A stretch of 64,000 nucleotides of DNA from Acholoe squamosa (Eukaryota > Annelida > Polychaeta > Phyllodocida > Polynoidae): contig OX439047.1 of the NCBI GenBank assembly GCA_949317995.1, positions 37,176,950-37,240,949 of the forward strand. The letters are read 5' to 3'. The notes under the pieces were generated by a model, which worked only from the letters and a program-made list of their open reading frames with translations, had not been told where the DNA came from and made no database searches. Shown here piece after piece: positions 6,201 through 53,124 of this stretch (the stretch's first letter is position 1; each line of letters starts with the position of its first letter). The position numbers and the translations under genes were made by a program.

Positions 6201-6229
6201 ATATGGGTGATTCCTGTGAGTTGCCCCAC
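6201..6229 (+). repeat. left terminal inverted repeat of the 8.8-kb transposon
   Basis: It begins ATATGGGTGATTCC and ends TTGCCCCAC. It pairs with 14941-14969 in inverted orientation, differing at two adjacent positions (GT versus AC). A degenerate version starts the related element at 33377. Confidence 0.85.
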
Positions 6230-6596
6230 ATTTCGATTTTTGGGGTCTTTTTGGATACATGTGGCTCCAGAATAAAAACTGTTCAACCAATCTTCTTATT
6301 TATGGTCTCATTTGAAAGAAAACATGTTTAGCTTCAAAAAGAGGGCAAATTTGCGTATGTCGGACCAATATTTTTTGAGCTATGGTGGCCCAAAGTTGGA
6401 AAATTGCCAAAAATTGTTTTTTTTTTCAATTTCCACCTTATTCCAGACCAAATATCATCAAGGAAAGCAGTAGTAGTCCACCATATTATTATTTATTTCA
6501 TAGCTGGGGGTCCTATCTAACATTTCCATGTGTATTGGAGGTGACATGTCCAGTAATTCTTTTTTAACATCAGGTCTTCTAAGTTGAAATAGTACG

Positions 6597-7882
6597 TGTA
6601 ACGCGCTTGATCAAAATTGAAAATCAATATAATAGATACTATAACTGTTGCATATGGTTTCTCATCTATCAGCATAGAGGGGGAGCATATGGGGTATTTT
6701 TGAGGAAAAAAATTTTTTTTGTATCTCCCGGCCTGTGCGCGCAATACACATTCAAGTAATTTTCAAGTCAGTCATCCCCACTCCCCCTGAAGCAACACTT
6801 TCCTCTGTGCAGCCTATATAAATCATCTAGGGGTAATCTCACCTATTATATAGTGTGTATCTATTGTTGAGGTGTCGTTTTAAAAAAAAAATCGGGTCTC
6901 TACATGCTTCGGTTGCCCCAAACCATGGTCGTTTATCATATGTAACGCGCTTGATCGGTATTCGGCAAAATTATGGCGGGAGAAGAAAAACAGCTCCTGT
7001 TACCCGGGCGGAAGTAGCCTCCATCCGGGGACTTCCCAAAAGTTGTCATCCGGTCCTCAACTAGCTTGGGATCAGATATTTAGGTGTTTACCGCCGACAG
7101 TTTTGGAAAAATCAAGCAAAAGGTGAGTGATATTGATCGAAACTTGATGAAATATTGATGTTGAATGTCGATTGATGTATTTGATGTGTTTTTTTTGTAC
7201 CGAAAGTGTACCGAAAGTGTGTAAATCGTGTAGAAAACATGTTAGACGATCGACGTGGGCGATAATACAAGCGCTGCCACTGTCTTGGTACCTTCTGTAG
7301 GCTTACAATTGGCGTGTAACGCGCTTGACCAAAATTCAACTCGACGGTAACGCGCTTGATGAAAATGATATTATGGCCTGTAGTGGCACATATATGGGCA
7401 AATAGATGAATAACTATGGTTAAAACGATAGAATAAGGCCCTGGCTTTGTTTTAGTGCAGGTTTGGTACCTTCTCCGCCATTTTGGACCCCCCCACCCAT
7501 GCCAAATCATTTTCTCTTCCCTGCTGGCACTGTTTTAGGTACCATTTTGATCGATTTTCTCCATATTCCCACTATTTACACACATTCCTGTGGTTATGAT
7601 ACCTCCTCTATGTGTATTTTATTGTCTAAATGTGTTACATCGCTGCTGGGTTTGATTATATTGGCACAGTGACCACCAGAAGACGTTAGATGTTATTTTC
7701 ATCAAGCGCGTTACCGGCGAGTCAAAAATCCCTCCTTTGTACACAATAATAGCAAACTCGTGTATTTTTGGTGTTAATATATTATTTGGGACTACTATCT
7801 AATGTCCAGACCTAATATGATGTGTGTTAGACTTTAATTACTATGATTTATAGAAGAATTTATTTTCATCAAGCGCGTTACA
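6597..7882. repeat. left cluster of the 16-bp motif TGTAACGCGCTTGATC (6 copies)
   Basis: Copies lie at 6597-6612, 6941-6956, 7315-7330 (ends GACC), 7346-7361 (starts GG, ends GATG), and in reverse at 7700-7715 and 7867-7882. The outermost copy starts 396 bp from the element end. The motif contains a CGCG core. It lies upstream of and within the predicted first (5'UTR) intron of the transposase gene. This fits an iterated transposase or host-factor binding site. Confidence 0.8.
6969..7122 (+). promoter_or_regulatory. candidate TATA-less promoter and non-coding first exon of the transposase gene
   Basis: Within 70 bp there is a YY1-like AAAATTATGGCGGG (6968-6981), an ETS-like GCGGAAGTA (7008-7016) and a textbook NF-kappaB-type GGGGACTTCCC (7027-7037). 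A consensus splice donor, AAAAG then GTGAGT, follows at 7122/7123. The coding start at 8230 is immediately preceded by a polypyrimidine tract and acceptor CTCCTTTTCAG. Together these suggest a 5'UTR exon ending at 7122 and an intron of about 1.1 kb. Another YY1-like site (CCGCCATTTTGG) is at 7475-7486. Assigning promoter function is inference. Confidence 0.45.
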
Positions 7883-8229
7883 TAACCACTATTATGCATA
7901 AAAAAGGCACCTATCCTGTAGTCAGCCCCCCCCAAAATTAACACAATGTGCGCCTATGGTACCTCTATCATGTGGAATGGTCATCCTTTCATTTCTGAAA
8001 AAAAAAAATTCAACATGTATCTGGGGTAGGACAATTTTTGATAAATTCTCAGTTACAATACACATGTCGCTTCCCAGAGGTCTCCCAATGTGTCAGTAAT
8101 CTTGCACAGTATCCTGGCATGGTCAATACATCCATTCTTTAGAATATAGACATATTTCCACCTATTTGTTGTACATGTTACAGTGTTGATATTTGCTCTT
8201 TTCTCAGTGCTTTTCTTCTCCTTTTCAGA

Positions 8230-8514
8230 ATGGGTCGCAAAAAGTTACCTGAGGGTGAGGCGGTGAGCCACACCGACTCACAGAAGGCGTACATGGCCAG
8301 GAGGGAGGAGAAGGAGGGAGAGGAGGTGGTGCGGCGGGCTGAGAACCTCCGCAAGGCCCAGAGTGCACGGCGGTGCGACGCCCAGCGCTCAGAGAAGGGC
8401 AAGGAGAGGAAGAGGAGGATGGGGGCCTTCCGGGCCGCCAAGAAGAGGGCCCTGGATGATGCCCGGCGCCGGGGCGTCGCACCGCCGGCATGGACAGATG
8501 CCAATGCGGCTGAG
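8230..8514 (+). CDS. transposase gene coding exon 1 (95 codons)
   Basis: ATG at 8230 follows the acceptor TTTTCAG by one base, so a spliced 5'UTR is likely. The exon encodes a Lys/Arg/Glu-rich helical segment starting MGRKKLPEGE. It ends GAG|GTATGA, a weaker donor, in phase 0. Read through, it stops after one more codon, so splicing is needed to join it to the rest. Confidence 0.7.
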
Positions 8515-11500
8515 GTATGAAATGATGAAATTAAACTTGTACATGTAAAATGCAAACCATAGCAGACATTCAACCAATGTAAATTATAAATGCAATGTAC
8601 ATGTATGTATGTAAAGTAACTATGAATTCTTAATTCTTAATTCTAGTATAGCATAAACATGCCTGTATTGTATTGCTGACAAATGCAAGTTGTGACCCTT
8701 TTCTTATTCAGTGGGTAGATGCGGAAATGGCCCGCGAGGAGGCGGAGGCCGCGGCGGAGAGGGAGGCAGCCGGGGAAGGGTGTTCCGGGGAGGCCGCCCC
8801 AGCACCTCCTGCCGCCCCTGCACCTCCTGCTGCTGGTCCCCCAGCGAAGGCCGCCAAGACCGCCCCCAAGACCGCCGCCAAGACTGCCGCCAAGACCGCC
8901 ACCCCGACTGCTGCCACTCCAAAGCCACCGGCCCAGGGCAAGGGTAAGGGGCGCGGGAAGAGCTCCAAGAAGCAGACACCGGCAGGTCGCCCAGCGCGTG
9001 GACGTGGGCGCGGCCTGCCGGTCGCGCTGTTCACTTCCCGCTCCCCTACCACTTCCTTTGGGTCGGTGGCCTACGAGGAGTATGGAGTAAGTATGAATTA
9101 AAAGTGTCATTTGGTAATTGGTTATCAAAGTAGAATTATACATGTACTTAAAGAGTAACTCATCAGCACTGTTATTTTGGTAATTGGTTATCAAAGTAGA
9201 ATTATGTACTTAAAGAGTAACTCATCAGCACTGCATTGGTGCATCGTGTAAATGTTATTCATGAATATTTTCCTTGTTCTATACATCAGGAGACGCCGGA
9301 AGACCCGGAGGTCATCTCCAGCGAGGAGGAGGAGGAACGGACGCTGGCAGGCGATGTCCCCGAGAACCCCCTCCTGCTGTCCGAGGAGGAGGAGGCCCCC
9401 GTAGTGCCCGCACCACCACAGCCGCCTACGGAGGCCCCAACACAGGAGGGGGCCCCGGTTGCGGAGGCCCGGCCCGTTCGCCAGGCTGCTCGGCGCGTCT
9501 CCCCAGAGAGGCGCCGAAGTGGCCGGGTCCAGGAGGCCTCCCCACCGGGGTTCAATGTGGGACTACTCGAGGACATCGCGTAAGTATTTGAATCATAGTC
9601 CCTTCTTTTGTGTTCTTAACTGTGAAGAATCATAAATTTATAAATAATAATTCTAAAACTAAAATTGGCCCTAAAATTCTTGATCAGTAAAGTGCTACTT
9701 AGTATGATTTATTCCACACTTCTATTTAACTTAACTTAATCAATGATAACATTTAACTAATTGTTATCAATTTACAGTGCCACCGTCCGTAAAGACAGTG
9801 TTCCTCAGTGAATGTAATTATCATAATAAATCTGAGATAAGAATAGTTTGTTCCATGGTGAATGTTTCCTTGCTTGTTGAATTTTTAGAATTAAGATTAT
9901 TGTACATGTACTGCCATTTCAATGTGTAAGGCGCTTGATCAAAATGATATATCCTGGGGTGTAGTAGCCTTACTAGGGCAAAAATGATGAATAACTGTGT
10001 ATAATATCATAGAATAAGGCCATTTCAATGTGTAACGCGCTTGATCAAAATTTCTAGTCAGCGGTAACGCGCTTGATCAAAATGATAGCATGGGGGCCCC
10101 AGTGGTGTAGTAGCCTTACATGTATCTTATAAATAAATGAGGCATGATGAAACTGAAAATTAATGATTGTTCATTTGTTTGCAGCCCGTGTGCTCAGACC
10201 GAAACGATGACGACACCAGGACCGACCCTCAAACCGACACCGACCACTCCTAAAAACCTGAAGAAACAGCAACGGAAGACCAACTCCCCCAGAACCAACC
10301 GCTACTACTATAAACAAGGGCTACTGAACAGAGACCTGACTGAGGCACATCTACAGATCAAGGAGTTGCAGGCTCAGCTTGCCCATGCCCAGTCGAACCA
10401 TCCAACTGTCGCTGAACCTGCTGTAGCGCACATGGAGGAGCGCGTTGCAGCAGCTGCACCGGATGGGGAACCTGCTGTAGCGCACGTGGAGGAGCGCGTT
10501 GCAGCAGCTGCACAGGAAGAGCTGACGGCGCATGACAGGAGTGTGAAGGCTGTGCTTGAAGGGCTGGCCAACCTTCCTCGCAAGGACAAAACCGCCATCA
10601 TGAACAAGGTGCTTTCGCCCGTCGTGATCAAAGAACAGCGGATCGCGGTGAGCTTGGCAAAGACCCTTGGCATGGATAGGCGGTCACTACTCAAAACCCC
10701 TTCAGACCAGCCATCTCCACGTGTGGTGAATCAGGAGGCCAAGATAGAGAGTGTCAAGGAGTTCTTGTCTGACCCAGAGAACTCCGAAATGAGACCTGGT
10801 AAGAAAGACACTAAGACCTTGAAGAAGGTGAAGCACCAGCAAATGTACCTCAGGGAGTTTATCCATGTGCTCCACAAGAGGTACGAGGCGACACAACCTT
10901 CTCACTTGCAGGTCTCACGGTCACTCTTCTACAGCATCAGGAAAGAACACCTTCCCTGGTTCATCCCCGTGGATCTCCAAAGCACTGATCTGTGCCTTTG
11001 CCAGAAGCACCAGAACTTTGCACTCCGGCTTGCTGCTGTCAGTATCCCTTTCAAAGATGAGATGTTCATGACATCCTGGGCAGAGTTCGAACAGACTCTC
11101 CAGGACAAAGCCCCCGAGAATGTCAAGTATGAAGTGTGGAAGAATGTGGACTATGAGTATGTGTCGACAGGCAAGGATGGAACTCAGAAGAAGACTACCA
11201 TCAAGAAGCTCCGCCCTTGTACAGAGATTGCATCCAAGGCGGACTTCATCAAGAAAACCAGACTGGAGTTCATCACCATGGCTGCCCATGTCGACCGTGC
11301 TCACAACCAACACCGCATCGTACATGAGCTACGAGCGAGTATGTCGTCGATGGAAGTTACCATCCAGATGGACTTTGCGGAAAACTGGATGGTATCATAC
11401 CCCGATGCTCCACAGAGTACATATTACGCGAAGGAGCCAGTGACCCTGCACCCTGCAGTCATCCACTACCGTGATGAGGACACTGGCACCACAAACCACC

Positions 11501-12822
11501 ACTCTGTCGCTCTGTGCACTGACGACCGGAAGCACGACACTGGCACCATCTTGGCGTTTCTCCGCTGCCTGGCAGCATTCATCAGGGAGAACCTGCCACA
11601 CGTCAAGGTGGTCCATTATGCTTCTGACTCACCCTCCAGCCAGTATCGAAACATCTCGGTGTTCTCGATACTCGTACGCCACACCGAACTACTTGACGGA
11701 CTACGGGCAACATGGACCTACTTCGAGGCGGGTCATGGAAAGGGCCCCTGCGATGGCGTCGGCGCTGCTGCAAAGCGCAACGCTGACAACATCGTCAAGC
11801 GCAACAAGGAAGGACATCCCGTCATCAACAATGCAGAGGAGTTCGCGGCCGAAGGTAACAAACTTGAAGGCCGCGTTCACTACATCCATGTCCCTCTGCA
11901 GGATGTCACCTCCGCCCGCCTCACTCTCGGCTCAGTGGTAGCAGACAAGTCAGTAGAGGGCACCATGAGTGTCCATGCTGCCATGGTCAAACAGGAAGGA
12001 AGGTCACTCGCTGTCCGTGACAAATCCTGTTTTGACCCCTGCTGCTGGGTCGACCTTAGGTCCGTTACTGGCTGCTCCGGATGGATTGAGCATGAGCTGG
12101 TTTTCAACAAGAACAAGAAGCCTCCCCCACCAAAGCAAACACGGCAGAAGAAAACGCGGCCTGCCAGTGTCCCTGCAGAGGTGGACGACGCGGATGCCCG
12201 CACCGGCGACCCTGATTTTGATCCTGTTGTGCGCACCACTGTCTGCAAGCGCACCAGGGACGGCTCACCAGTCGTGGCACGTAAGCACACTCGAAGTGAC
12301 CGGGTGCCAACTCCTGCCACGGCTGACAAGGAGAACATTGCCCCGTGTGCCGCACGAAAGCGTGCCGCGGAGCGTGCCGTCGCCGTCCCTACAACCAAGC
12401 GAGCACGACAGGATCCACCGACCTCGACCCTCCCTCAGGAGGATGTACAACCAACGGACAGTGTAGGGAAGTTGGTACTGGTGCAGGATGAGTACCATGT
12501 AGGTGACATTCTTATCACTGCCAGCCTGGCCAGTACCAGCTCAAAGGACAAGTGGTTTATGGGTAAGGTGATAGCCAAGGACAATGACTTCTACCAAGTG
12601 CACTACATGCTGCGCTACATGGCGTCGGACAAGAGAAGCTTCAAGTGGGGGAAGGAGATCATCCCAGCTAGGGTCCACCCCCTCAACGTTCTTGGCAGAG
12701 TCACTCTGCCCAAGCCAAGTCGTTATGGCAACACTGAGAACGCTGTCTACAAACTTGATCCCCTCACCATCCAACTGGCTGATCGGAAGCTTCTCAAGTA
12801 CCGCAGCGAGTGCACTGGTTAG
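8230..12822 (+). CDS. transposase-like protein, four coding exons, predicted 1195 aa
   Basis: Exons 8230-8514, 8712-9086, 9290-9579 and 10185-12822 join in phase (0, 0, 2) through GT-AG introns into one uninterrupted frame. Residues 1-95 are highly basic. 96-220 contain an Ala/Lys/Pro histone-H1-like tract. 221-316 are acidic (SSEEEEE, LLLSEEEE). Next comes a coiled-coil segment (about 345-375) and a possible helix-turn-helix around LAKTLGMDRRSLLK. A CLCQKH cluster (Cys587, Cys589, His592) precedes a DDE-like core: Asp713 (MDFAENW), Asp798 (SDSPSSQY) and Glu831 (FEAGHGKGPCDG), with 84 and 32 residues between them. A CFDPCC cluster (932-937), NLS-like Lys/Arg tracts and an SH3/Tudor-like C-terminus (from about 1077) follow. 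It lies inside TIRs, so it probably catalyses its own transposition. The core resembles a recurring, mostly unnamed family of large metazoan proteins; I cannot name the superfamily. Coding GC is far above flanking and intron GC. Confidence 0.8.
8712..9086 (+). CDS. transposase gene coding exon 2 (125 codons)
   Basis: The acceptor TTATTCAG precedes TGG (phase 0) and the donor GGA|GTAAGT ends it (phase 0). It encodes a helix rich in Ala/Glu, then Pro/Ala and repeated AAKTA units like a linker-histone tail, then GKGKGRGK and RGRGRG basic tracts. Composition is strongly GC-biased. This probably makes a disordered, DNA- or RNA-binding tail. Confidence 0.7.
9290..9579 (+). CDS. transposase gene coding exon 3 (acidic)
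   Basis: The acceptor ACATCAG precedes GAG (phase 0). The donor GC|GTAAGT leaves two bases that combine with the first base of exon 4 to make an Ala codon. The peptide is acidic with two SEEEE runs, one preceded by hydrophobic residues as in SUMO-interaction motifs, then Arg-rich (RQAARRVSPERRRSGR). No enzymatic domain. Confidence 0.7.
9925..10078 (+). repeat. intronic cluster of the 16-bp motif (3 copies) in transposase intron 3
   Basis: Copies are at 9925-9940 (one mismatch, TGTAAGGCGC), 10031-10046 and 10063-10078 (GG start). The close pair 10031/10063 and its flanks (AAAATGAT, ATAGAATAAGGCC) duplicate the pair at 7315/7346 in the first intron. So a module of about 150 bp has been copied within the element. 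Confidence 0.75.
10185..12822 (+). CDS. transposase gene coding exon 4 (catalytic exon, 879 codons plus stop)
   Basis: The acceptor TTTGCAG ends at 10184. An in-frame ATG upstream at 10144 lies in the intron and is probably not used. The exon holds the coiled coil, HTH-like segment, a PGKKDTK block, the CLCQKH cluster, the three candidate catalytic acidic residues (codons at 11371, 11626, 11725), a conserved-looking GHGKGPCDGVGAAAKR, the CFDPCC cluster and the C-terminal SH3-like segment. The stop is at 12820-12822. No internal stop or frameshift. Confidence 0.85.
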
Positions 12823-12895
12823 ATGTCATTGATCCCGGTTATCACCTGTTTTACTTTGGCCACTATAACTAAGACCCAAACTGTATTGTACCTAT

Positions 12896-14422
12896 GTTTA
12901 ACTGCATGACATTGCGTGTAACGCGCTTGACCGATATCTGTAATGGTACTGCTTCATTGGCTGTGGGCAACCTGAGAGTTATCTGAGCTGTACTACTGCT
13001 ATTTAATATGTTACTAGACATGTGTGGCTGGTATTTTAGGCCTGTTTGGATACTCCTAGTTAATTTTTGGACCTTCTGGCTTGATTGATTTAAAAAAATT
13101 AGTCGCAAAAAAGTGCAATTTTATTTTCCGAGGCATACGGGAGACCCCAAATAGGTATTAATTGTACATTTCTTGGTTTTAAACAGTAGTCCCATTGCTT
13201 AAGTAGTTGTGTATGAAGCAGCATTATGATATGAAAGGTTTCAGACCATCTAGGAATTGTTTAACTGCATGACATTGCGTGTAACGCGCTTGACCGATAT
13301 CTGTAATGGTATTGCTTCATTGGCTGTGGGCAACCTGAGAGTTATCTGAGCTGTACTACTGCTATTTAATATGTTACTAGACATGTGTGGCTGGTATTTT
13401 AGGCCTGTTTGGATACTCCTAGTTAATTTTTGGACCTTCTGGCTTGATTGATGTAAGAAAATTAGTCGCAAAAAAGTGCAATTTTATTTTCCGAGGCATA
13501 CAGGAGACCCCAAATAGGTATTAATTGTACATTTCTTGGTTTTAAACAGTAGTCCCATTGCTTAAGTAGTTGTGTATGAAGTAGCATTATGATATGAAAG
13601 GTCTAAGTACCTCTATGGAGCCTCTATCTATGAGTGACTGTATGTAACGCGCTTGATCGGTATCCGCCTGCGCGGAGGGCATTTGACATGGTATTGCTTC
13701 ATTGGCTGTGGGCAACCTGAGAGTTATCTGAGCTGTACTACTGCTATTTAATATGTTACTAGACATGTGTGGCTGGTATTTTAGGCCTGTTTGGATACTC
13801 CTAGTTAATTTTTGGACCTTCTGGCTTGATTGATGTAAGAAAATTAGTCGCAAAAAAGTGCAATTTTATTTTCCGAGGCATACGGGAGACCCCAAATAGG
13901 TATTAATTGTACATTTCTTGGTTTTAAACAGTAGTCCCATTGCTTAAGTAGTTGTGTATGAAGTAGCATTATGATATGAAAGGTCTAAGTACCTCTATGG
14001 AGCCTCTATCTATGAGTGACTGTATGTAACGCGCTTGATCGGTATCCGCCTGCGCGGAGGGCATTTGACATGGTATTGCTTCATTGGCTGTGGGCAACCT
14101 GAGAGTTATCTGAGCTGTACTACTGCTATTTAATATGTTACTAGACATGTGTGGCTGGTATTTTAGGCCTGTTTGGATACTCCTAGTTAATTTTTGGACC
14201 TTCTGGCTTGATTGATGTAAGAAAATTAGTCGCAAAAAAGTGCAATTTTATTTTCCGAGGCATACGGGAGACCCCAAATAGGTATTAATTGTACATTTCT
14301 TGGTTTTAAACAGTAGTCCCATTGCTTAAGTAGTTGTGTATGAAGTAGCATTATGATATGAAAGGTCTAAGTACCTCTATGGAGCCTCTATCTATGAGTG
14401 ACTGTATGTAACACGCTTGATC
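12896..14422 (+). repeat. tandem array of 363/382-bp units each with one 16-bp motif
   Basis: Motif starts at 12917, 13280, 13643, 14025 and 14407 give periods of 363, 363, 382 and 382 bp. Units are near-identical by eye. The first two read GTAACGCGCTTGACCGATATC. The later ones read GCTTGATCGGTATCCGCCTG and have a 19-bp longer GC-rich insert after the motif. The last motif copy has one change (ACACGC). The array lies between the transposase stop codon and the right end, in the 3'UTR or subterminal region. The minus-strand ORFs over it repeat with the units and are not genes. Confidence 0.85.
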
Positions 14423-14764
14423 GCTATTTTGCCAATTTTGGGCAGCTGCTCACATAAAAAAAAAATGTAGGAATGGAAGAATGATGATTGTTTAAGAAAA
14501 TATAGACAATGAAGACATAATAACTTGAATTACATGCATACCCAATGCATATTAAGCTTGTGAGAGTAAAGTTAAGGTTTTGTGTTAGAAATTTTTGAAA
14601 AATCTCAATTTTCTTAAAAAGTTATGTCTCATATTTTCAAAAGTTTTCAAGACTCAGTCCTAATTTTTGGTACACTTATTCATAACTACTATACAAGTTT
14701 GGACATGCAATATGGTAATCACAGAGACATTATTGATGAAGTTCTATGCATAAGAAGTTATATC

Positions 14765-14780
14765 GATCAAGCGCGTTACA
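14765..14780 (-). repeat. right-most 16-bp motif copy, inverted
   Basis: A perfect reverse copy of TGTAACGCGCTTGATC whose outer edge is 189 bp from the element's right end. Together with the copy at 6597 it forms an inverted outer pair. The related element at 33.4 kb has its own outer motif 184 bp from its right end. Confidence 0.85.
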
Positions 14781-14878
14781 CAAATTATACCTTTTTACTG
14801 CAACTGTGATAAAAACTGACATCCTGGGAGTTAATGACTTGAATGGACCTTTTCATACAGCCAAGATATAGGGTTATC

Positions 14879-14889
14879 AATAAAATAAA
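14879..14889 (+). terminator. candidate polyadenylation signals of the transposase gene
   Basis: Two overlapping AATAAA hexamers (CAATAAAATAAAGT) lie about 80 bp inside the right end. No clear AATAAA was seen between the stop codon and the tandem array. The same string occurs at the corresponding place (35988-35998) in the related element, so the site is conserved in the family. Use as a poly(A) signal is inferred. Confidence 0.45.
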
Positions 14890-14940
14890 GTCTTAAAATG
14901 TAATGCTGAGTTTGTCATGTTTGGCCCCTGACCCCCAAAG

Positions 14941-14969
14941 GTGGGGCAGTTCACAGGAATCACCCATAT
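14941..14969 (-). repeat. right terminal inverted repeat of the 8.8-kb transposon
   Basis: GTGGGGCAGTTCACAGGAAT followed by CACCCATAT is the reverse complement of 6201-6229 with two mismatches. Confidence 0.85.
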
Positions 14970-33075: not shown

Positions 33076-34722
33076 TCAAAATAATTAATTTAGCAGAATA
33101 AATGCATTATCGTAGCTTGAAAAGCAATTGTGTACGTGTCTTAGCTATGCCAATCATCAGTTCATGTATGTGACATAATATCAGTATACAGTGGATTCTT
33201 CCCTAAAAAGCCAGTAGTCCTTCCTATACACATGCATTGTCTATGCAGGGAAATTTCAATGAGCATCATAATGTCTGTGTAATCAAGCACTCTGCAAGGT
33301 ACGTCATAGAGTTGGACCATAACTGTCGCATGAAACTTCTCACTGGTCCCTTTCTCATAGGGTCTCTGTTATTAGTATATGGGCAGATCTACTGAGCAAT
33401 GTTTGGGCCTAGTTTGAGAGGATTTTAGCTTTGGGGAGCTGCAGTAAAAAATGTAGACCACTATTCTTCATTATTTGAGTCACATCTGATAAAAAACACC
33501 TTGAGCTTTAAGTAGAGGGCAAATTTATGTATATATCGGCCTATAATTTGACGAGTTACGGAGGCTCGAAGTTGGACAATACAACAAAAATGCCCTTTTT
33601 TGTCCAATTTTCCATCATTCCCACCTATATATTGTTAGGCTAGGCAGTATTAGAGTGTGATAAACCTATTTTACCTTTGGTCAGAGGTTATAGCTATCTA
33701 TTAAAAATACTTTGGTCATGTCCCTGCCTCAAATGTCTTTCACACCTGTGTTATAACATCCAACTGTGAGCATCCTCACATACTTAACATTTTTTTACAC
33801 CTTAAACTTCCATGCTATAAAAGTATCCTCACTGTTCTTATCAACTGTGTTGAGCAGGGTACCGAGGAGGGTTTTGATGGTGAATAAATGAAAGTGCTGG
33901 TTTGCTGCAGATACGAGCTAGGTCTCATAAACCAAAATTCAACTCCCGAAAACGTTGTATGTGAGGTACACTTTTATATGTCTGTAGGCTAAATAAATAA
34001 TTCTTTATTTCTAGTTTATTCTAGTGTAGAATCTATATGAATTGAATGATTTAAGCAAAAAACATGGCTCAAGTCTGCACAGTAAGGCCACAGAGGGGGT
34101 TTTTTGGTATTGGTGTGGAAATCCTCACATACATAACGAAAATATGTGGAGGAGAAAGGAAATGTTTCCAGTTGCCCTAGCATAAATGACCGACCACTAG
34201 AAGTCACTCAGAGCATCTCAAATTAGCTAAGCGCACAGTCTACTTTGATTTTGCAGCTCCATTTACACTGAAATTTCACAAAAAGGTAAGGAATGTCAAT
34301 CAAATTCTCATGAAATAGTGTGTGTTATGTATGTGAGGGTCTGCAATTGTCTTAGATTGCATGGAAATGGTGTATTTTAGGTTATATTTCCCTCTGATTG
34401 AAAGTCCCAAGCCATAGACTGGCCATAGCAGCTTGGTAATGCCATTTAGTTTGGCCAGGAAGCCCCATACTCATCTTGCTACGTATGTGAGGTGTTTACT
34501 ATATGTGTTGCACCACACACATCCAAATAGAATTTTTCAAATAAATTGGTTGATAATCTTATAATAGTGTCCCTGTCTAATATCCTGGATAGAATTAAGG
34601 CACTTACCATTTAAATTTCTGCAAGTTTCCCACAAATTTGAAAAGGTTGCGCATATGAGGTTTTGTTCATTTTGGTTACAATGTGTACTTCAGACCCACC
34701 CAGCCTATACATAATTCACCAT

Positions 34723-35016
34723 TACCGTAATCTCCCGCGTATAAGGCGCATCCCACGTATAAGGCGCACCCAGAGTTTCAGAATATGGACAAAAAGATTA
34801 AAAATTCATAACTTTTGTGTTAATGAATGGATTTTCAAAATTCAAAAAGCTATGTGTAGTTTTGACCCCCGTGACCCTCCTGGACCCCAAATGCAGCAGA
34901 TGAGCTTATATGGGAGTGTAATATATCAAAAGAAAGGTCTTGGTGTCCCCCTTGTGGATCCAATGAGAACTAAAACCCCCATATAAGACGTGCCTTATAC
35001 GCCGGAGATTACGGTA
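34723..35016. mobile_element. TA-flanked MITE (Tc1/mariner- or pogo-like), nested
   Basis: TACCGTAATCTCCCGCGTAT at the left is mirrored by a GCCTTATACGCCGGAGATTA-type right end finishing CGGTA at 35016. The inverted ends are about 30 bp, with TA on both sides. GTATAAGGCGCACC-type ends are widespread in animal genomes among TA-inserting elements. Non-coding. It interrupts the 33.4-36.1 kb element, so it is younger. Confidence 0.7.
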
Positions 35017-35530
35017 GATGCACGTATGGTTCCCCAAACTCAAATAGTAGTGAATGTAGCAATCCTGCAAGTTTTTTTTTCAAAGTGTTCTTTATGGTTG
35101 CTATATTCTAGAGTAAGGCTGCACTGCCAGTCAGTAATGATATTTATGGGGTTCTATCCATACACAATTTTTTGGTCCTACTTACTTCTCATCCCCCATT
35201 GATAAACTGTAAATATTAGAGCATAATTGCTTGATATTACTCACCTTACTTGTTCAACAATTGTATTCAATCTTTTGCAGTCTGCAAGTTTCTGAGGAGG
35301 ACAGGCTGTCCAGTGAGGATGGCATGTGCTCAGAGTGAGATGGAAATGACCCATAATATAGTCTAATGTGTTAAGATATGCCTTTGAACTACTAATTTAA
35401 CTAGTCCTGTACAAGAAATAGTGATGCAGATGATCTGTGATGTTTAAAAGTATTGCTCTATCCAAATCCTCACATATGTAATGTTGTTTTTTTCTTTGGT
35501 ATTCAGAAGTGCCTTTGCAGATCTGGACCA

Positions 35531-35531
<1 letters not shown>

Positions 35532-35584
<53 letters not shown>
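35532..35584. repeat. (AT)n microsatellite
   Basis: About 26 dinucleotides. Confidence 0.95.
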
Positions 35585-35589
<5 letters not shown>

Positions 35590-36218
35590 GAAAAGAGTGA
35601 CATCTTTTAAAAGTAGAGACACTCTAGATAATAGAAAGTGTTTTAAATAAGGAACTAGTCATTTTTAAATATATGAGGGAAAAGTTAAGAATGCTAGGCT
35701 ACATCAAAACTTCCACTGATCTCCATGTTTAGTGATGAGGTGTAATAAAAAGTTCTTGGTGCAAGGATTTCATTTTTGCTACACCTTAAGGCATGTATTG
35801 TAACATTTTGGACATGAAATCTGATGTCATAAGAGGATATTTAACAGCTTTTATGACTGTTTGTTTTAAAACGTTACATATGTGAGAGTAAAGAATTATG
35901 GTTTTACACCACAGGCTATAAAAACTGACGCATTAGGAGTTGGTGACTTGAATCAACCTTCCTAACAAGCAAAGATCTAGGGCTTTCAATAAAATAAAGT
36001 GCTGTTAAATAATATTGAGCTTGTGATTTCATTGGTTCTCAGGCTGGTGAACATCCTTTACCGAATCACCCCATAAAGTCATTCGTTATAAAATGGCAAT
36101 TGAGTTCATGAAAGGCCATAAGACAATATGACATCTGTAAACTCTTCCCACATCTGTGGGTGGGTCTTGTATCATGATAATCCCTCACCTGGAGTGGGCG
36201 ATACATACTTCTTCCCTG

Positions 36219-36475
36219 GAGGGTCTTGCCAAAAAAAGAAACGTGAAGCAAAAACGAAAATGTGTACGTTTTTGTCTTGCTAAATAATTGTTTAGATAAT
36301 CGTTAAGAGGAAACGTGCACATTTGTTTACATCTTAAAGATAATTTTCCATGTAATCTGCTGTAATTGTTTTGTCAATACTATGAAAACGATTTAGGCCA
36401 TACAAGTTTTCCTCAGCATTCTCTAAAGAAATTTATAGAGGTTCTTCCTCGTCATCTTTTGGCAAGACCCTCCTG
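36219..36475. repeat. short TIR pair, possible 250-bp element
   Basis: GGAGGGTCTTGCCAAAA near 36221-36237 is reverse-complemented near 36458-36474. The interior has AAACGTG and ACGTTTTTGTC-type words in both orientations. No target duplication was identified. Confidence 0.4.
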
Positions 36476-42352: not shown

Positions 42353-43349
42353 GTGAATGAGCCTACAGTAAAACCTACTTTAGAGGATATAAATAGATCC
42401 CTTTTTCCAAAATTACCTGGACTCACTGAAATGCAATATGAGGCCCTGATACCATCAATCACTGAGTTCGATGATATCTTTGTACAAAAGGACAACAAGT
42501 TGGGCCGCACTCACTTGTACACCCATGAAATTAAATTAAAACCTGACGCCCAGCCCAGGCAGTTCTACCCCTTAAGAATGGCACCGCACAAACTCTTAGA
42601 GAAGGAGTATGAAAAGCTGGTAAAGCAGGACATACTGGAGGAAACCAACACTGGCCCATGGTTATCACAGAGATTTTTAGTTGAAAAGAAGGGTGGACAA
42701 GGGTGGCGCCTTGTTACTGACCTGAGATACGTCAATTCCCAAATTATTAACCAGGCCCTCACTTCCCCATGAGCTGATCCTAATACCAATTAGAGAGGAG
42801 GACAGGGACAAGGTCGCTTTCAACTCGTACCAAAAAGTATTGTTATTAATCGATGCTATTAATCTAGCTACAAGTGCCCAGGCTTTCCAAGCTGTTATTA
42901 ACCTGGTTCTTCAAAATTTGCAATATAAATGTGCCATTCGATATTTGGATGATATTTTGTGCCTCTCACCATCAATTGTTCAGCATTTTATGGACCTGAG
43001 GAACATCTTCCTAGCACTTAGAAAAGGCAACCTCAAGCTCAAGAAAACTAAGTATGAATTTTTCTTTGAAGAGTCAGATTTCTTGGGCATGAAAGTCACC
43101 ACAGAGGGCATAAAATCATCCCCAGATAAAATAGACAAAATCCAATTTTTTCCCACACCAAAGTCAGTGAGGGACGTTTGCAGTTTCACTGGGTTAGCTC
43201 AGTTTTACAGGAAATTTATTAAAAGTTTCAGCTTTGACCTGCTACCCACAAATGTCACCTTTAAATGGACCCAAGAATGTGAAACTGCCTTTCAAAAATT
43301 AAAAGACTCAATCTGTGAAGACTCCATTTTACTGTATCCTGATTACTAA
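42353..43349 (+). pseudogene. Ty3/gypsy reverse transcriptase (broken)
   Basis: The first segment (42353-42772) has HEIKLKPDAQPRQFYPLR, then a fingers region with FLVEKK and WRLVTDLRYVN. Stops follow at 42770-42840. The second segment (42840-43349) has the catalytic YLDD box (IRYLDDILC), KTKYEFF...FLGMKV and the connection-domain FTGLAQFYRKFI. The order and spacing match gypsy RTs. Confidence 0.8.
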
Positions 43350-43740
43350 TAGGAATTCCACCTCACTACAGATGCTGCAGGTACAGCCCTGGGAACTACC
43401 CTCTCCCAGGAAACAAAAGATAGTGTCCTACCCCTGGTAGCCTTTGCTGGTAGATCCCTGCATGAACACGAAAAGAATTATGCAGCCACCCAGAGGGAAC
43501 TACTTGGTGTAGTTTTTGGCGTAAGATATTTCAGGCATTACTTAGAAGGAAGACACTTTCAACTATACGCAGACCACCAAGCACTCATTCAGATGCTGAC
43601 AAAGTCAGACAATATAAACATGTGGGCACTGAAAATTCAACAGTTCTCTTTTACAATAAAGCATCTCAAAGGAAAATTAAATGTACCATCTGATGTATTA
43701 TCTAGAAGAGACTATCCCTTGGATAAAGAGCCAATGACTG
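43350..43740 (+). pseudogene. retroelement RNase H domain
   Basis: After a TAA at the join comes LTTDAAGTALGTTLSQ (first catalytic Asp), then the E of QRELLGVVFG and YADHQAL (third acidic residue). It finishes with LNVPSDVLSRR, the typical gypsy RNase H end. The frame is open across this block apart from the entry stop. Confidence 0.75.
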
Positions 43741-44884
43741 AGTTAGCACCACCCCCAAAACCGATCAATACAGAGTCATGTTTAATGATAAAATTAACAT
43801 GCAGTTTTATCATACAGACTCACCCCCCAACACTCTATTTAAAACTGCCACCATCATCAATTCTAAAAGGGAAATCTACACACCATCTCTACTGCACTTG
43901 CCCTTCAGAGCCATCCCCGCAGAAAACATAGTGTCAGAAACAAGAGAATGTTCATTTAGAAACATTAGAAACAACCCTGACATTCCACTTAACAATGCAC
44001 ATGTTAATGCAATTAATTACAGGGAGGCACAGTGTCCCATGCAGAAGGGTGATGCCGTTACAAGCACTTCAACAACTCACGCTGTAATTAATCCAATAGC
44101 CAACCAATTTCCATATGTTAGCCATGCCCCCAGTAGTATAATGCAACATGAAACAAAGCACTGTAATCAAGCCCCAACTGACACCTATGTTGTAACCAGA
44201 CAGCCCGTATCACAATCAAAGGAGGGATTAATGGCACAGACGGTGCACCCAAGCACAGGCTCAACCCCAATACCGCCGCCACCTGCTAATCCCCCACCTG
44301 ACACAACAAACCAGGCGATGCCACGCCATAACCCAGGCCACTCCCCAAAGGGTCCCCCTTAGTCCCACTTGAAACCTATACCTGAAACAAAGCCGACGCC
44401 ACGCCATAACCCAGATCACTCCCCAATGTGCCAGCCAAATCAGTACTTCAAACAAACCCAAATTTACGCCTCATCAGACAACCCACCAGCATTCTTGAAC
44501 ACAAAGTCAGCCATAAGAGTTTACAAGCGTCCCCAGCGACATCATAAACATACAATAAACCAAATTCACTCCTCAGTGAAAGGTAATTTGACCTTCAAAG
44601 CTTCCCACCTAGCAGAACAAACCAAACATATCATGGAATTCATGAATCAGCTAGCAGATCCATCAGTATCTGAATTTAAAGACAGAACAGAGGGACTCAG
44701 AAACCATTCATCCTATTATTCAATACCTAGAATCTGGACTGGTACCAAACAGTAAAAATAAACGCGACACCCAGCAATTTGTAAATTCCACCAAAGATCA
44801 CCTTATGTCAGAGGATATCCTATGTCACATCAATTCCAAGAAACATCAGGAGGTGTCTTTTCATCCAGTCATACTGGTCATAAG
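43741..44884 (+). pseudogene. long Pro/His-rich linker between RNase H and integrase
   Basis: About 1.1 kb of mostly open sequence in two frames (ORFs to 44362 and 44369-44755), with two ATPRHNP-(G/D)HSP-type repeats. No RT, RNase H or integrase motif was seen. Gypsy elements normally have only a short zinc-finger tether here, so this is an expansion of unknown role. Confidence 0.5.
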
Positions 44885-46099
44885 TTATGAGGATTCATAT
44901 GTTGAAATTATTTCATGACATTCCCCTTGCAGGTCATGCCGGCCCCAAAAGAATGCTCGCCACCATGCTACCAAAAGTATATTGGGAAAACATGGCAAGC
45001 GACATTCAAAAATACAAAGGCTCTGAACATCACAAACAAACTTCCTATGACAAAACATGAACAACCAACCTACCCGTTTCAGTTTGTGCACATAGATGCC
45101 ATAGGGCCTCTCCCACCAACACCAGTCAAACATAAATACATCCAGGTAGTGGTGGACAGATTTTCAAAATTTTGTATAGCTTATCCCACAACTTCATTGG
45201 ATGCAAACACCACAACTGCAAAATTCACAGAGAATGTTATATTGGCAGAAGGTGCACCCACCACCTTGCAAAGTGATAACGCGACATCTTACAAAAACGC
45301 GACTTTCAAAAGAAAGGTGCAGCACTCACAACATCAAACACATATTCAGTTCCCCCTACAGACCCCAATCAAAGGGCCAAGCAGAACAGTGTGTAAAAAC
45401 GATATCAAATGGACTTTTTGCAGCGAGAACAAGAATACCTTGGATGTTTATCTGCCTTATGTTGTGTTCTCTATGAACAACATGGAGTCAAAATCCATGG
45501 GTTTTACCCCATTCTTTGTGATGAGAGGTAGGAATCCAAATACATTCATAGACAATACAATTCCCCTCTTGGAGCAAAAATCATTAAATATGCACATTAT
45601 AGGCAAATTAACACAGGTAGACTACACCTACAATAAAATTTTGGAAGGTTCAGAGAGAGTGACTGAAGACATGAGGAAACAGCATGACAAAAATGCAAAG
45701 AACTCTCATGTTAAAGTCAGCTCCATAGTGTATGTGAAAATACCCAGACTCTTGGACAGGGAAAAATGCCTAAAGCTACATGAAGTTTATTCAGGCCCCT
45801 ACATAGTTTGTAAATTTAATTCCCCCACTTCTGTGTCAGTAAAATCGATCCACACAATGAAAATGGCTGCCAAACCAGTCCATATAGACAGATTAAAACT
45901 GGTGCGCCATGTAAGGAACAATGATTTCATACACAGACTTATTGTGCCGAACAACGACCTCCTAAAGAAACTGAGGAAATTGGATGGAAAGGAATTAAAA
46001 CCAAAACCCATAGTGTTACAAACTACAAACATATACAGGTCGCGCCCGACACATTCTAAAGCCAGGAAAAGGTCTAGAGTAGGCCTAAAATCTAATTAA
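44885..46099 (+). pseudogene. retroviral-type integrase (broken)
   Basis: A His-His half of the zinc finger is seen in one frame (HDIPLAGHAG), but the Cys pair is not. The core has the first Asp in VHIDAIGPL and the second in LQSDNAT. The region with the third acidic residue (PQSKGQAEQ) is in a different frame (about 45310-45440), so a frameshift pair has hit the catalytic core. The basic C-terminal part (KIPRLLDREK...YSGPYIV) fits a GPY-type integrase tail. Confidence 0.75.
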
Positions 46100-46639
46100 C
46101 TAGCGACCTTTTTGACCACCCTTGCTTATTCTTTTTATTTATTCATAATTCTGCCCTGCGAGGCCCTGTCCCTGTGTTTTTGTCTTGTCCCTTTTTCTAG
46201 GCACTGAGATAGTGACTCCAAATTCCGCGCGGCTCCAACCCGCTGACACCTTGCAATACATTATTGTCATGTTTACTTAAGGCTCTGCCACAGGTGACAT
46301 TTTGTTACAATACACAAACCCTCATTACAATGAGCAATGCCGCCAGGCATCAGGTTATGTGGTCGGTAGGATTGAGCCCCTACACCCACATGACACCACC
46401 CAATGGTTATATAATCCTTTGTTCTACATTACTGGAGCATCAGTGGCGACCCCTAGTGGCGGCGCACCTAGCCAATGTGCTGTGTCCTCACTGGGACATA
46501 AGTCACTGACCGCTCCCAACATTGCCCACTTCACACAGTGCTCATCCCCTACACATTTCATACAGCCTAGGAGTTCTGCCTTAGGAAGGAATTTGGGTTG
46601 CTTCAGTTTCAGTGCCACCCCACATCATTTATATTGCTG

Positions 46640-48817
46640 GTATACAAGGAATATCACATAGGATAGGACTGTATTTCTGTCATGGCAGCCACCATGTGGA
46701 TCCTTCTACTTATCTCAATGACCACCTGGAGAGCCTCATGCACACCCATTGTACGGCAGAACATTGGAGTGTTGTATGAACAACTTCCTGGACAACTAAT
46801 TACTGAACACAACTACAATGAGTTAATGCTCATGGTATCCTATGACATCCCTGACATTCCTCCACCAAAACCCCCCATTGGGAGCTTGGTGAGATCTCTA
46901 CAGACACCCGCATTGGGACCTGTTGACAGTGCCTCTGCTTAATTAATTCAGCAAGCAAAAGACCCGGGCCAGCTGCTAGCCACTCTACAAGACGATATCA
47001 TCACCACCATGAAAAACGTTTTGCATTTCCTCTTGACCCCATAAATGCACATGACAGGAGGCCCATCTTGTCCTTCCTGGCCGAACCTTTTAAGTCTATT
47101 TTTGGATTAGTGACGACTAGTGACCTTGAAAACATTATGAACAAAATTCAAGACCTTGACAGCAAAGTAGGGGAGCTAGTAAACACTAACGTTAAGACGG
47201 CTGAGGGACTCCATGATCTGGCAAGACAGCACAATAACATGATTGACACATATATCAAGGACCAAGATGTGGTGGCCCAGGCTCTGCTAAATATAGCAAC
47301 TATTGATTCCTGGTCGGATGATTTCTCTACAACGCTAACCACTATTCAAAGCGAGCAAGACAGGATCACGGCCCAGTCTGCACTGATTTCTGCACAAACC
47401 GTGGTTCTCCTGACTAAACTCCCTTACTACCAAGGTTTGGTATCAATAGAGAATTCCCTTCGTCTGCTATCAACATGCACCCTGGCACCAGACATCATTA
47501 GACCGAGTTAGCTGTCAGGCTGGATCAACTTAATACCCACCTCAGAGTGAACAATCTGGGCTCTGAAGTGACCATCATGGACACTGCATATTATTATTCC
47601 CAACCAGTATCTTTCTACACCTATTCATCCAACCATCTGTATATTCATATCAAAGTCATCATTTCATCTACAGACTCTGCTTTTAACTTATTCCAAGTTG
47701 GCACCACAGAAGTACCAATCAACACCGAAAATACAAATGGAACTGGTGTCACCCAGATTGTGGCAGACATCTACATTTCTTGGGTGTGAATGAGGCACAG
47801 ACACTGTTTTTGGAACTAACCAATTCAGACCTATTAGCATGTCCAGGGAACATTTTAAAGGTATGTGATAGGACCATCCCTAGACTCAGGTTGGACACAC
47901 CAACCTGTCTGATAGCAGCTTTTATCAATAACAAGAAGAACATCACCAGGCTCTGTACGTTTCAAATACAGCCATTTAAACCTCTTCGCACCTAGGCCAT
48001 AGCTATAGCGATGGACAGCTACCTGGTCACCACCAACCAGAGGAGCTACCATGTGATCTGTCAACAGAAGACGCCGACTACAAAGCAGGCAATGGTCTAT
48101 GCGGTGGTGGGTGTCCCCTGTAACTGCCATTTGCAGTTCCATGGTCTGTTCCTCCCAAATACCAGAATACCTTGTAATAGCACCATCTCTACTCACTACT
48201 TGATGCATACGGTCAATATGCCAGTGATATTTTCCTTCAATCCATCAATCCACACAGCATGTTGCCTAAAGACACTACTTCAGACCTCACACCGTTCACC
48301 AACCGGATTCTACAGAGATGCAAAAGCCACTGCCAAGGACATGCACAGGCCACTGAGCATAACCCTGGCCATAGATGGAGTTGCCACCTTCTTTAACTAT
48401 GTGGCATGGAATTACATCCTACCTATACTAACTTTCATCAACTCTATTGTACTAGTTGTATTGATCTTTAAGACCATAGGCAGAGGCGCTGTATTTACAG
48501 CACTACCATCAGCACTACCATTTAATATTACCTGGCGACATGTCAGAGCCAACGACATCACTCTTCACCCAACAACTATCCCACATATAGACAATTACAT
48601 CAATGCAGAGAATATTTTTACTGTTATATTGATTGCGGTCTTGTTTCCTATGTTAAAACCATTCCGATCCTGTGAAGAACTGAACTCGGGCCACTGTGGC
48701 ATAAGACAGACTCACTATCCATTACTCCATTCCAAGCGGTATAAGAAGTCAATGTATATCATAAGAAGAACCTACTCTGTATCGGTAACCCTGGCTTTCC
48801 ACACATATTTTGCATAG
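46640..48817 (+). pseudogene. env-like region (broken; errantivirus-type layout)
   Basis: The first segment (46682-46942) starts with a signal-peptide-like hydrophobic stretch (MWILLLISM). The second (47068-47511) has a fusion-protein-like FGLVTTSDLENIM start and a long heptad-like helix. Cys-containing segments follow. The last ORF (48011-48817) has transmembrane stretches around 48411-48475 and 48620-48660. At least four frame breaks or stops separate them. Assignment to the F-type env found in errantiviruses rests on order and topology, not alignment. Confidence 0.5.
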
Positions 48818-51201: not shown

Positions 51202-53124
51202 TGGCCCTTAAGTCTTATGGCACCATGTCATTTGGCACCATGTCACATGGCCGAAATATTAGTGGCCGAAATGACATATGGCTGAAAAGACATATGGCCG
51301 AAATATCAGATGGCCGAAATGTCAGATGACTGAAATGTCATTGAATTCCATACTTCTCCAACCTGATCCAGTGGACACAGTATTGAATCAACTTTTTTTT
51401 CAATGTTTGTATACATGCATCAACAGTTGATTTGAAGTTCAATGTTGGACCTCCAATGTTGTTTATATATTGATCCCATTTATAGCTTTCTGGTCATTTC
51501 GAGTGGATATGCCAACTTGAATCATTGAAATTGACATTTATTATTAAATGTTGACAACCCATTAACGGCCCCCATTCACAATACAACACCATACAACACC
51601 ATACCACACCAGTACCACACCATACAACACCAGTACCACACCATACAACACCATACCACACCGGTACCACACCATACAACACCAGTACCACACTATACAA
51701 CACTAGTACAACACCATACAACAACAGTACCACACCAATCACACCAGTACAACACCTTACCACACCATACAACACCTTACCACACCATACAACACCAGTA
51801 CCACACCAGTACAACACCATACCACACCATACAACACCATAACACACCAGTACAACACCATACCACACCATACAACACCAGTACCACACCATACAACACC
51901 ATACCACACATATACAACACCATACCACACCAGTACAACGCCATACAACATGAGTACCACACCATACGACACCAGTACAACACCATACCACACCAGTACA
52001 ACACCATACCACACTGGTGTTGTATGGTGTTGTACTGGTGTGGTATGGTGTTGTATGGTGTTGTACTGGTGTGGTATGGTGGTGTACTGGTGTTGTATGG
52101 TGTTGTGTAGTGTGGTATGGTGTGGTATGGTGTAGTACTGGTGTTGTATGGTGTTGTATGGTTTCATACTGGTGTTGTATGGTGTTGTACTGGTGTTGTA
52201 TGGTGTGGTATGGTGTTGTATGGTGTTGTATGGTGTTGTTTGGTGTGGAATGGTGTTGTATGGTGTTGTATGTATGGTGTTGTATGGTGTTGTACTGGTG
52301 TGGTATGGTGTTGTACTGGTGTGGTATGGTGTTGTACTGGTGTGGTATGGTGTTATATGGTGTGGTACTGGTGTTGTATGGTGTTGTATTGTGTTGTATA
52401 GTATTGTATGGTTTCTTACTGGTGTTGTACTGGTGTTGTATGGTGTGGTACTGGTGTTGTACTGGTGTGATATGGTGTTGTATGGTGTTGTACTGGTGTT
52501 GTATGGTGTTGTATGGTGTGGTACTGGTGTGGTATGGTGTTGAACTGGTGTGGTATGGTGTTGTATGGTGTTGTATGGTGTTGTATGGTGTGGTATGGTG
52601 TTGTATGGTGTGGTACTGGTTTTGTATGGTATTGTACTGGTGTTCTACTGGTGTGGTATGGTGTTGTATGGTGTTGTAATGGTGTTGTATGGTGTGGTAC
52701 TGGTGTTGTATGGTGTGGTACTGGTGTTGTATGGTGTGGTACTGGTGTTGTATGGTGTTGTACTGGTGTGGTATGGTGTTGTATGGTGTGGTATGGTGTT
52801 GTACTGGTGTGGTATGGTGTTGTATGGTGTTGTACTGGTGTGGTATGGTGTTGTACGGTGTGGTATTGTGTTGTATGGTATGGTACCGGTTGGTACGAAA
52901 GGGCAGGGGGGTACTGTGTATTTCAGTACTTCTTTTCTTAGGATAGGGTTGAAAAGGGTTGGTTGAAAATGTTGAAAATGGAGGTTGCATAAAATGATTT
53001 TCAAGTATTTCGGCCATCTGTCATTTCGGCCATGTGTCGTTTCGGCCAAATGACATTTCGGTCAAATGGTTTTTAGGCCATAAATTTTTCAGCCATGTGT
53101 CATGGTGCTATAAGTCGCAGGGCT
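51202..53124. mobile_element. foldback element with self-complementary satellite arms
   Basis: Outer arms (51202-51350 and 53005-53124) are inverted relatives made of iterated GGCCGAAATGTCA(G/T)(A/T)TGG words and share the outer string CTTATRGCACCATG. Inside, 51578-52014 is CCATACAACA-type satellite and 52015-52891 is its reverse complement (TGTTGTATGG). The two strands can pair as a hairpin of more than 400 bp. The right half is about twice as long as the left. No protein is encoded. Confidence 0.75.
51578..52891. repeat. 10/11-bp satellite in two opposed blocks
   Basis: Units are CCATACAACA, CCATACCACA, CCAGTACAACA and CCAGTACCACA: two binary choices (CAT/CAGT and CAA/CCA) in irregular order. 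Orientation flips once, near 52014. It gives spurious ORFs of Tyr/Gly/Val/Cys/Trp one way and Asn/Thr/Pro/His/Gln the other. Confidence 0.9.

Follow-up and report, generated by a model that had tools for sequence, protein, structure and literature searches.

The window, a 64-kb stretch of DNA, contains two transposable elements, E1 and E2, that share a homologous scaffold but differ in the iterated motif found at conserved positions on it, and a third element, E3, found elsewhere in the genome, supports the same arrangement with a third motif. We put at roughly two in three the probability that E2 belongs to a Sola-like clade of cut-and-paste transposons, whose iterated motifs would be binding sites for each element's own transposase and would have diversified together with it.

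E2 is a 2.7-kb non-autonomous element on the plus strand, whose ends and target duplication were read by comparison with its sister copies. An element had previously been placed at 33377–36073; E2 proper occupies 33381–36072, as the ATAT at 33377–33380 is the left target duplication, and the right duplication, at 36073–36076, is ATAA (one mismatch to the left one), giving termini of ATAT-GGGCAGATC...GAATCACCCC-ATAA. When the left sides of ten other E2 copies were fetched, the left end was recognizable in seven and absent from three, and all seven had a matching 4-bp duplication (ATAT, or the non-palindromic ATAA, ACAT or AAAT). The E2 right end has 1010 candidate places in the 1.48 Gb host genome; identity was 93–100% in the best 40 of these that were scored (100% being the window copy itself), and the median divergence of right ends from their consensus was 2.8% in the 30 best matches, a selected set. 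When E2 was searched for a transposase remnant, nothing reached an E below 0.05. E2 represents a non-coding family that is present in many copies and is flanked by 4-bp target duplications. Nested within the window copy, at 34723–35016, is a 294-bp inverted-repeat insertion with TACCGTAATCTCC ends; those sister copies that reach this site pass directly from E2 position 1348 to position 1639 or later and lack the nested element. Another inverted repeat, GGAGGGTCTTGCC.../...GGCAAGACCCTCC, is present at 36218–36473, about 150 bp past the E2 right end, and is perhaps a further small inverted-repeat element.

The family motif of E2, based on 30 loci including that of the window, has the consensus (AA)CGTTACGTATGTGAGG, also written AACGTTACGTATGTGAGG, and the copies in the window look like CpG-decayed forms of it. 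The version of the motif in the preliminary description had four matches in the window, all inside E2 (shuffle mean 0.29, maximum 2). The family consensus identified six copies in E2 at ≤2 mismatches and seven at ≤4: the outermost left copy, TGTTAAGTATGTGAGG, at 33774–33789 (minus strand), followed by copies at 34123–34138 (minus), 34323–34338 (plus), 34477–34492 (plus), 34645–34660 (plus, decayed, with 4 mismatches), 35468–35483 (minus) and the outermost right copy at 35872–35887 (plus). This last copy was kept at its position, at ≤4 mismatches, in 28 of the 30 loci, that of the window included.

E1 is an 8.76-kb element with a transposase gene, at 6205–14965 on the plus strand, and is flanked by ATAT at 6201–6204 and 14966–14969 (ATAT-GGGTGATTCC...GGAATCACCC-ATAT). 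Its motif, TGTAACGCGCTTGATC, was present in all 30 E1 loci read and, with up to 3 mismatches allowed, was matched 15 times in the window, always inside E1 (shuffle mean 0.22, maximum 2). The copies are distributed over the leader, an intron, a 3' array of five copies spaced 363, 363, 382 and 382 bp (12917–14422, plus strand) and the regions near both ends, where the outermost left copy is at 6597–6612 (plus) and the outermost right copy, inverted, at 14765–14780 (minus). None of the 15 is inside a predicted exon, although exons make up 41% of E1.

The E1 transposase gene (8230–12822, plus strand) was predicted by the reading of GT/AG splice sites alone, with no transcript, and would have exons at 8230–8514, 8712–9086, 9290 or 9293–9579, and 10185–12822, encoding 1194–1195 residues plus a stop. 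The same splice-site reading recognized this one spliced open reading frame (ORF) in E1 and showed no second gene. In the numbering of the exon-4 ORF, residues D410, D495 and D537 form a DDD triad on an RNase H-like model, and the VIA list for this ORF was mostly of residues 285–579. Pfam returned nothing at E ≤ 0.001 for the exon-4 ORF, sub-cut-off matches alone being found at E ≤ 1, and a sequence search of the PDB with the transposase yielded five hits at E ≤ 1; none was convincing, and three were Agenet- or Tudor-like proteins matched to the C-terminal part. There was no match of E1 in a phage collection. The best 51 of 1879 candidate transposase copies that were scored are 97–100% identical and nearly all are stop-free in the main match, which indicates a recent burst of this 9-kb element.

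Elsewhere in the window, no RNA families or tRNAs were found. An ORF at 44915–46099 has an integrase core domain (rve, Pfam E 2.4e-9), and the open frames around it, at 42353–48817, perhaps represent an LTR or related element. The sole Pfam match of a 507-residue ORF on the minus strand, at 51494–53017, was COG6_N, below the cut-off.

The preliminary description had proposed that E1 and E2 share a left block, a right block and terminal bases, and all three were borne out. The left block of E2 (33445–33610, plus strand) corresponds to 6273–6432 of E1, and the right block (35918–36027, plus strand), which contains CAATAAAATAAAG, to 14809–14918; both are also found in E3, and their order and orientation are alike in E1 and E2. 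Local alignment scores were 94 for the left and 85 for the right blocks, compared with best scores of 32 and 25, respectively, from 300 dinucleotide shuffles. Blastn within the window gave E ~2e-11 (70% over 167 bp) for the left and E ~4e-13 (75% over 112 bp) for the right. The outer motif copies are at equivalent places. In E1, the distance of the motif core is 394 bp to the left end and 187 bp to the right end, and the E2-consensus motif begins 392 and 199 bp from the corresponding ends, with a CCTCAC... start and a GTAAC core about 10 bp further in; distances noted earlier (396/189 in E1 and 395/184 in E2) agree with these within the choice of motif edge. Alignment of the ends alone with MAFFT placed the GTAA of the left outer motif and the TTAC of the right outer motif in the same columns in E1, E2 and E3. 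In E1 as in E2, the two outer copies face in opposite directions, also as first described. Neither of the window elements holds the motif of the other at ≤2 mismatches, so that the refuting case named in the preliminary description, one element with both motif types, was not seen.

E3 was identified by a search with a right-block pattern that was written to exclude E1 and E2. E3 was one of the seven places found; four others resemble E1 or E2 copies, and the remaining two (L071 and L077) are without a repeated 10-mer. E3 is a complete element of 1271 bp with ATAT on both sides; its motif, ATGTAATGGGCGTGAGTAAAATG, occurs seven times, with between 0 and 6 mismatches over 23 positions, and its outer motif cores are 393 and 183 bp from the left and right ends. 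The identity of E3 to E1 (76% over 311 bp and 83% over 105 bp) exceeds that of E2 to E1. These data bear on whether E2 might be a recombinant, in which E1-type ends were fused to an unrelated interior that had a motif of its own and nothing was replaced in place. Blastn did find no homology between the E2 interior and E1 outside the two blocks, as such an origin would have it. However, the homology spans much of both ends, from terminus to outer motif, and E3 has a third motif in the same arrangement at a higher identity to E1, so that several recombinations with identical breakpoints would be needed. In addition, E3 and one of the families described below (Fg) look like intermediates with partly changed motifs on the same scaffold. 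We regard a recombinant origin as very improbable.

A codon pattern for HGKGPCDG, also written to exclude E1, identified 365 places in the genome, and the 100 of these that were listed contained over a dozen different codon strings, some of them a single base apart. For each of six types, the 3' stretch was read at a single locus. In five of these families, motif copies were found downstream of the gene at a spacing of 362–384 bp, the sixth, Fd, being less certain. The motifs are GTGTAACGATGGTCACATTTAT in Fa (unit 384 bp), where it is also found directly after the stop codon; GTGTAACGTCCGGTACTTTTAT in Fb (unit 382 bp); GCTTCAGCGTTGGTCACGTTTT in Fc, with two copies 363–371 bp apart by anchor; GGACCGCGTCTGCTCACTT in Fd, the least certain family, with a variable spacing that is 383–394 bp in part; GGAGTAACGCGCTACGCATGAC in Fe, on the other strand (unit 370 bp); and GTGTAATGCGCATGATGAAAC plus one variant, 362 bp apart, in Fg. 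By eye, L077 has a single Fc-type motif, most of it and in reverse, ahead of the shared right block. Seven gene–motif pairs were therefore seen when E1 is included (Fd being less certain), and the motif classes of E2 and E3 were seen without a gene.

The similar unit lengths of these families first looked convergent, as blastn between the units of E1, Fa, Fb and Fd gave no match with E below 0.05. A more sensitive shuffle test placed 6 of 21 pairs of units clearly above chance; Fe was entered in reverse, its forward scores (28 to 62, in the 'rev' column) being compared with shuffles indirectly, and the Fd unit showed no clear relation to those of the other families. After masking of the motifs, 14 of 15 pairs among E1, Fa, Fb, Fc, Fe and Fg aligned with their motif cores no more than about 25 bp out of phase; Fa–Fc was the exception, and the lowest-scoring pairs, all with Fa, were at shuffle level. 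Many of the units are homologous, so descent can explain their shared length, and the idea that the ~360–390 bp spacing reflects a nucleosome constraint was dropped.

That homology also speaks for motifs with no element-specific function, which would be old passengers of the 3' repeat, or host-factor sites, that drifted in each lineage and are paired with a gene through common descent. The position of a motif may then come from descent, and pairings within one family are not independent of one another. We nonetheless consider this very unlikely, as the same motif is found beyond the tandem unit (at the outer ends, leader and intron of E1, after the Fa stop codon, and in the non-coding E2 and E3) and drift would not alter all of these dispersed copies in step.

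The pairing of motifs with transposase families was examined over the stretch from C1 to C2:20.2 Mb that is common to the gene and motif lists and has 31 transposase places. The pattern GTGTAACGN9TTTAT had 921 matches in the genome compared with 71 for a reversed control. Downstream of the codons for the catalytic motif, an Fa array lay at +1347 to +1356 in every one of the 11 Fa genes (one of which was recognized as Fa by a codon string with a single-base variant), and an Fb array lay at +1230 in all five Fb genes. No Fa gene had an Fb array (0/11), no Fb gene had an Fa array (0/5), and the Fa motif was found in one of 15 other transposase genes. For six of the 100 motif places listed, no listed gene lay within the preceding 6 kb. 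The Fa arrays had 4 to 7 matches listed each, and the final copy was inverted in ten of the 11, as in E1, the eleventh running past the matches listed. Fisher values for the pairing were 1e-7 and 6e-6, which are overstated because the members of a family are related by descent and the 11 and five cases are not independent. When six motifs were searched at ≤2 mismatches in the sequences of E1, E2, E3, Fa, Fb and Fd, each matched its own element, and the sole other matches were three Fb-type sites at L015:419–641, which flank the E2 copy at that locus from outside, suggesting a non-autonomous Fb-type element there. The pairing of motif class with transposase family was thus seen in many copies of E1, Fa and Fb and at a single locus in each of Fc, Fd, Fe and Fg.

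The wholesale replacement of motifs that had been proposed is not supported as worded, being too strong a term for motifs several of which share a GTAAYG half. The E1 and E3 motifs match at 14 of 19 positions (1 of 20,000 shuffles was as good), those of E3 and E2 at 11 of 19 (p = 0.025), and those of E1 and E2 at 10 of 19 (p = 0.07; under another score, 131 of 5000). Nine columns are common to all three motifs, which occurred in 1 of 3000 trials with both shuffled and at p = 0.017 with E2 alone shuffled. All of these values are flattered by a 19-base frame that was picked after the motifs were seen, and the E2 motif appears to fit the frame weakly. GTAAYG is common to the E1, E3, Fa, Fb, Fe and Fg motifs and absent from those of Fc and Fd, and GGTCAC is common to Fa and Fc. 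Two registers relate the E2 motif to that of E1, one in the same orientation that shares TAYGTAACG and one in the opposite orientation that shares GTWAYGnnnKTGA; they coincide at the core because GTWAC is near-palindromic. We infer that in E2 and Fe the variable half is on the other side of this core, which E2 alone does not prove. Overall, motif change looks to have proceeded half by half.

The preliminary description had suggested asking whether each motif class pairs with a distinct N-terminal or helix-turn-helix (HTH) region of the transposase. Among E1, Fa and Fb, identity was 71% in the catalytic region (401–560 of the exon-4 ORF), 38–51% in regions 192–275 and 285–400, 25–30% in the helical region 115–185 and 29–39% in its HTH-like core (160–187), the HTH label being based on a sequence pattern plus AF2 secondary structure. 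When the putative HTH part was folded by itself, the model had low confidence (mean pLDDT 65, pTM 0.29) and was left aside. The divergence of the HTH region relative to the core is as expected, but the C-terminal region 785–892 (20% for E1–Fb, the sole pair measured) has diverged as much, so that low identity does not single out the HTH, which slightly lowers the odds of the main reading. The segment before the HTH (50–114) is at 42% for E1–Fa and 20% for E1–Fb. The conserved core and diverged HTH would thus be partly informative and not diagnostic, coming from three families only.

Based on these observations, we propose that the transposase of this clade would be a DDD-type RNase H enzyme, nearest to the Sola superfamily, that makes 4-bp target duplications and binds the motif of its own element, which may be read by the HTH-like part N-terminal to the catalytic domain. 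The iterated copies may help to load the ends and bring them together as a pair, or may raise the local concentration of the transposase on its own DNA. The site would be bipartite, with a commonly shared half (GTAAYG, with the near-palindromic core GTWAC) and a variable half on either side, and families would diverge when one half changes and then spreads to all copies, e.g., by repeat-unit turnover. E2 would be mobilized not by the E1 transposase but by one with specificity for CGTTACGTATGTGAGG. A stronger form of this proposal, that one genome holds a series of coexisting, mutually orthogonal transposase–motif pairs on one scaffold, with modular half-sites whose halves were changed singly in all copies, is more tentative, and we would not favor it on present data.

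The main rival to motifs as transposase binding sites is an anti-silencing or regulatory function encoded by the element, similar to that of VANC in VANDAL elements, which are plant Mutator-like elements. Motifs would be the targets of this function, diverging to avoid cross-talk and host silencing, and copies through the leader, intron and 3' arrays would keep the element open. The presence of copies in all of these places besides the ends would suit such a role, as would the variable array length between copies of Fa. In Arabidopsis, the short motifs targeted by VANC proteins lie in non-coding tandem repeats and vary from one related VANDAL family to another (PMC5735166, PMC10398659); their copy number is dynamic, and the different motifs are matched to a diverged protein (PMC5735166). 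However, the outer copies are at near-fixed distances and inverted even in the non-coding E2 and E3, as end recognition predicts. VANDAL elements also have a dedicated VANC gene, whereas splice-site reading, with no transcript, recognized none in E1, where motif copies also mark both ends. We consider an anti-silencing role possible but unlikely. Mutator-like target duplications are 7–12 bp (PMC10741241), compared with 4 bp in the E2 copies.

Of known superfamilies, the closest in description is Sola, which was reportedly first described in 2009. E1 and E2 are alike with it in the 4-bp duplication (ATAT/ATAT in E1 and E3, ATAT/ATAA in the window E2, and the seven E2 sister copies), and E1 in its DDD triad on an RNase H fold, its 8.8-kb size and its terminal inverted repeats. 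The Sola passages of PMC10741241 give these elements 4-bp duplications, a DDD-type RNase H transposase, terminal inverted repeats and a size that fits 8.8 kb, and do not mention an iterated family-specific motif, which is present in E1, E2 and E3. The duplication length and the catalytic triad make membership in Sola likely. No paper on iterated motifs in Sola-like elements was found in the open-licence PMC literature. Iterated short motifs near the ends are also a feature of CACTA/EnSpm elements, where the element-encoded TNPA recognizes them in maize Spm/En and, for soybean Tgmt and Tgm1, motif classes differ between families in one genome while the transposases are conserved (both PMC2613891). 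By contrast with the CACTA termini, 3-bp duplication and separate binding protein of that superfamily, E1 and E2 have GGG...CCC termini and 4-bp duplications, and E1 has one predicted transposase gene; neither element has CACTA termini with a 3-bp duplication.

Iterated motifs that diverge with their binding proteins have thus already been described or inferred in plant CACTA and VANDAL elements. Here, several families, at least one of them recently active, coexist in one genome and differ in motif while sharing a scaffold, motif positions and a catalytic core. This makes testable the reading of bases by residues, the orthogonality of families, and the joint change of all copies of an iterated site. 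Orthogonal transposon ends could serve as insertion tools. If the orthogonal, modular pairs are real, these families would provide a natural specificity series for the co-evolution of a transposase DNA-binding region with its iterated site.
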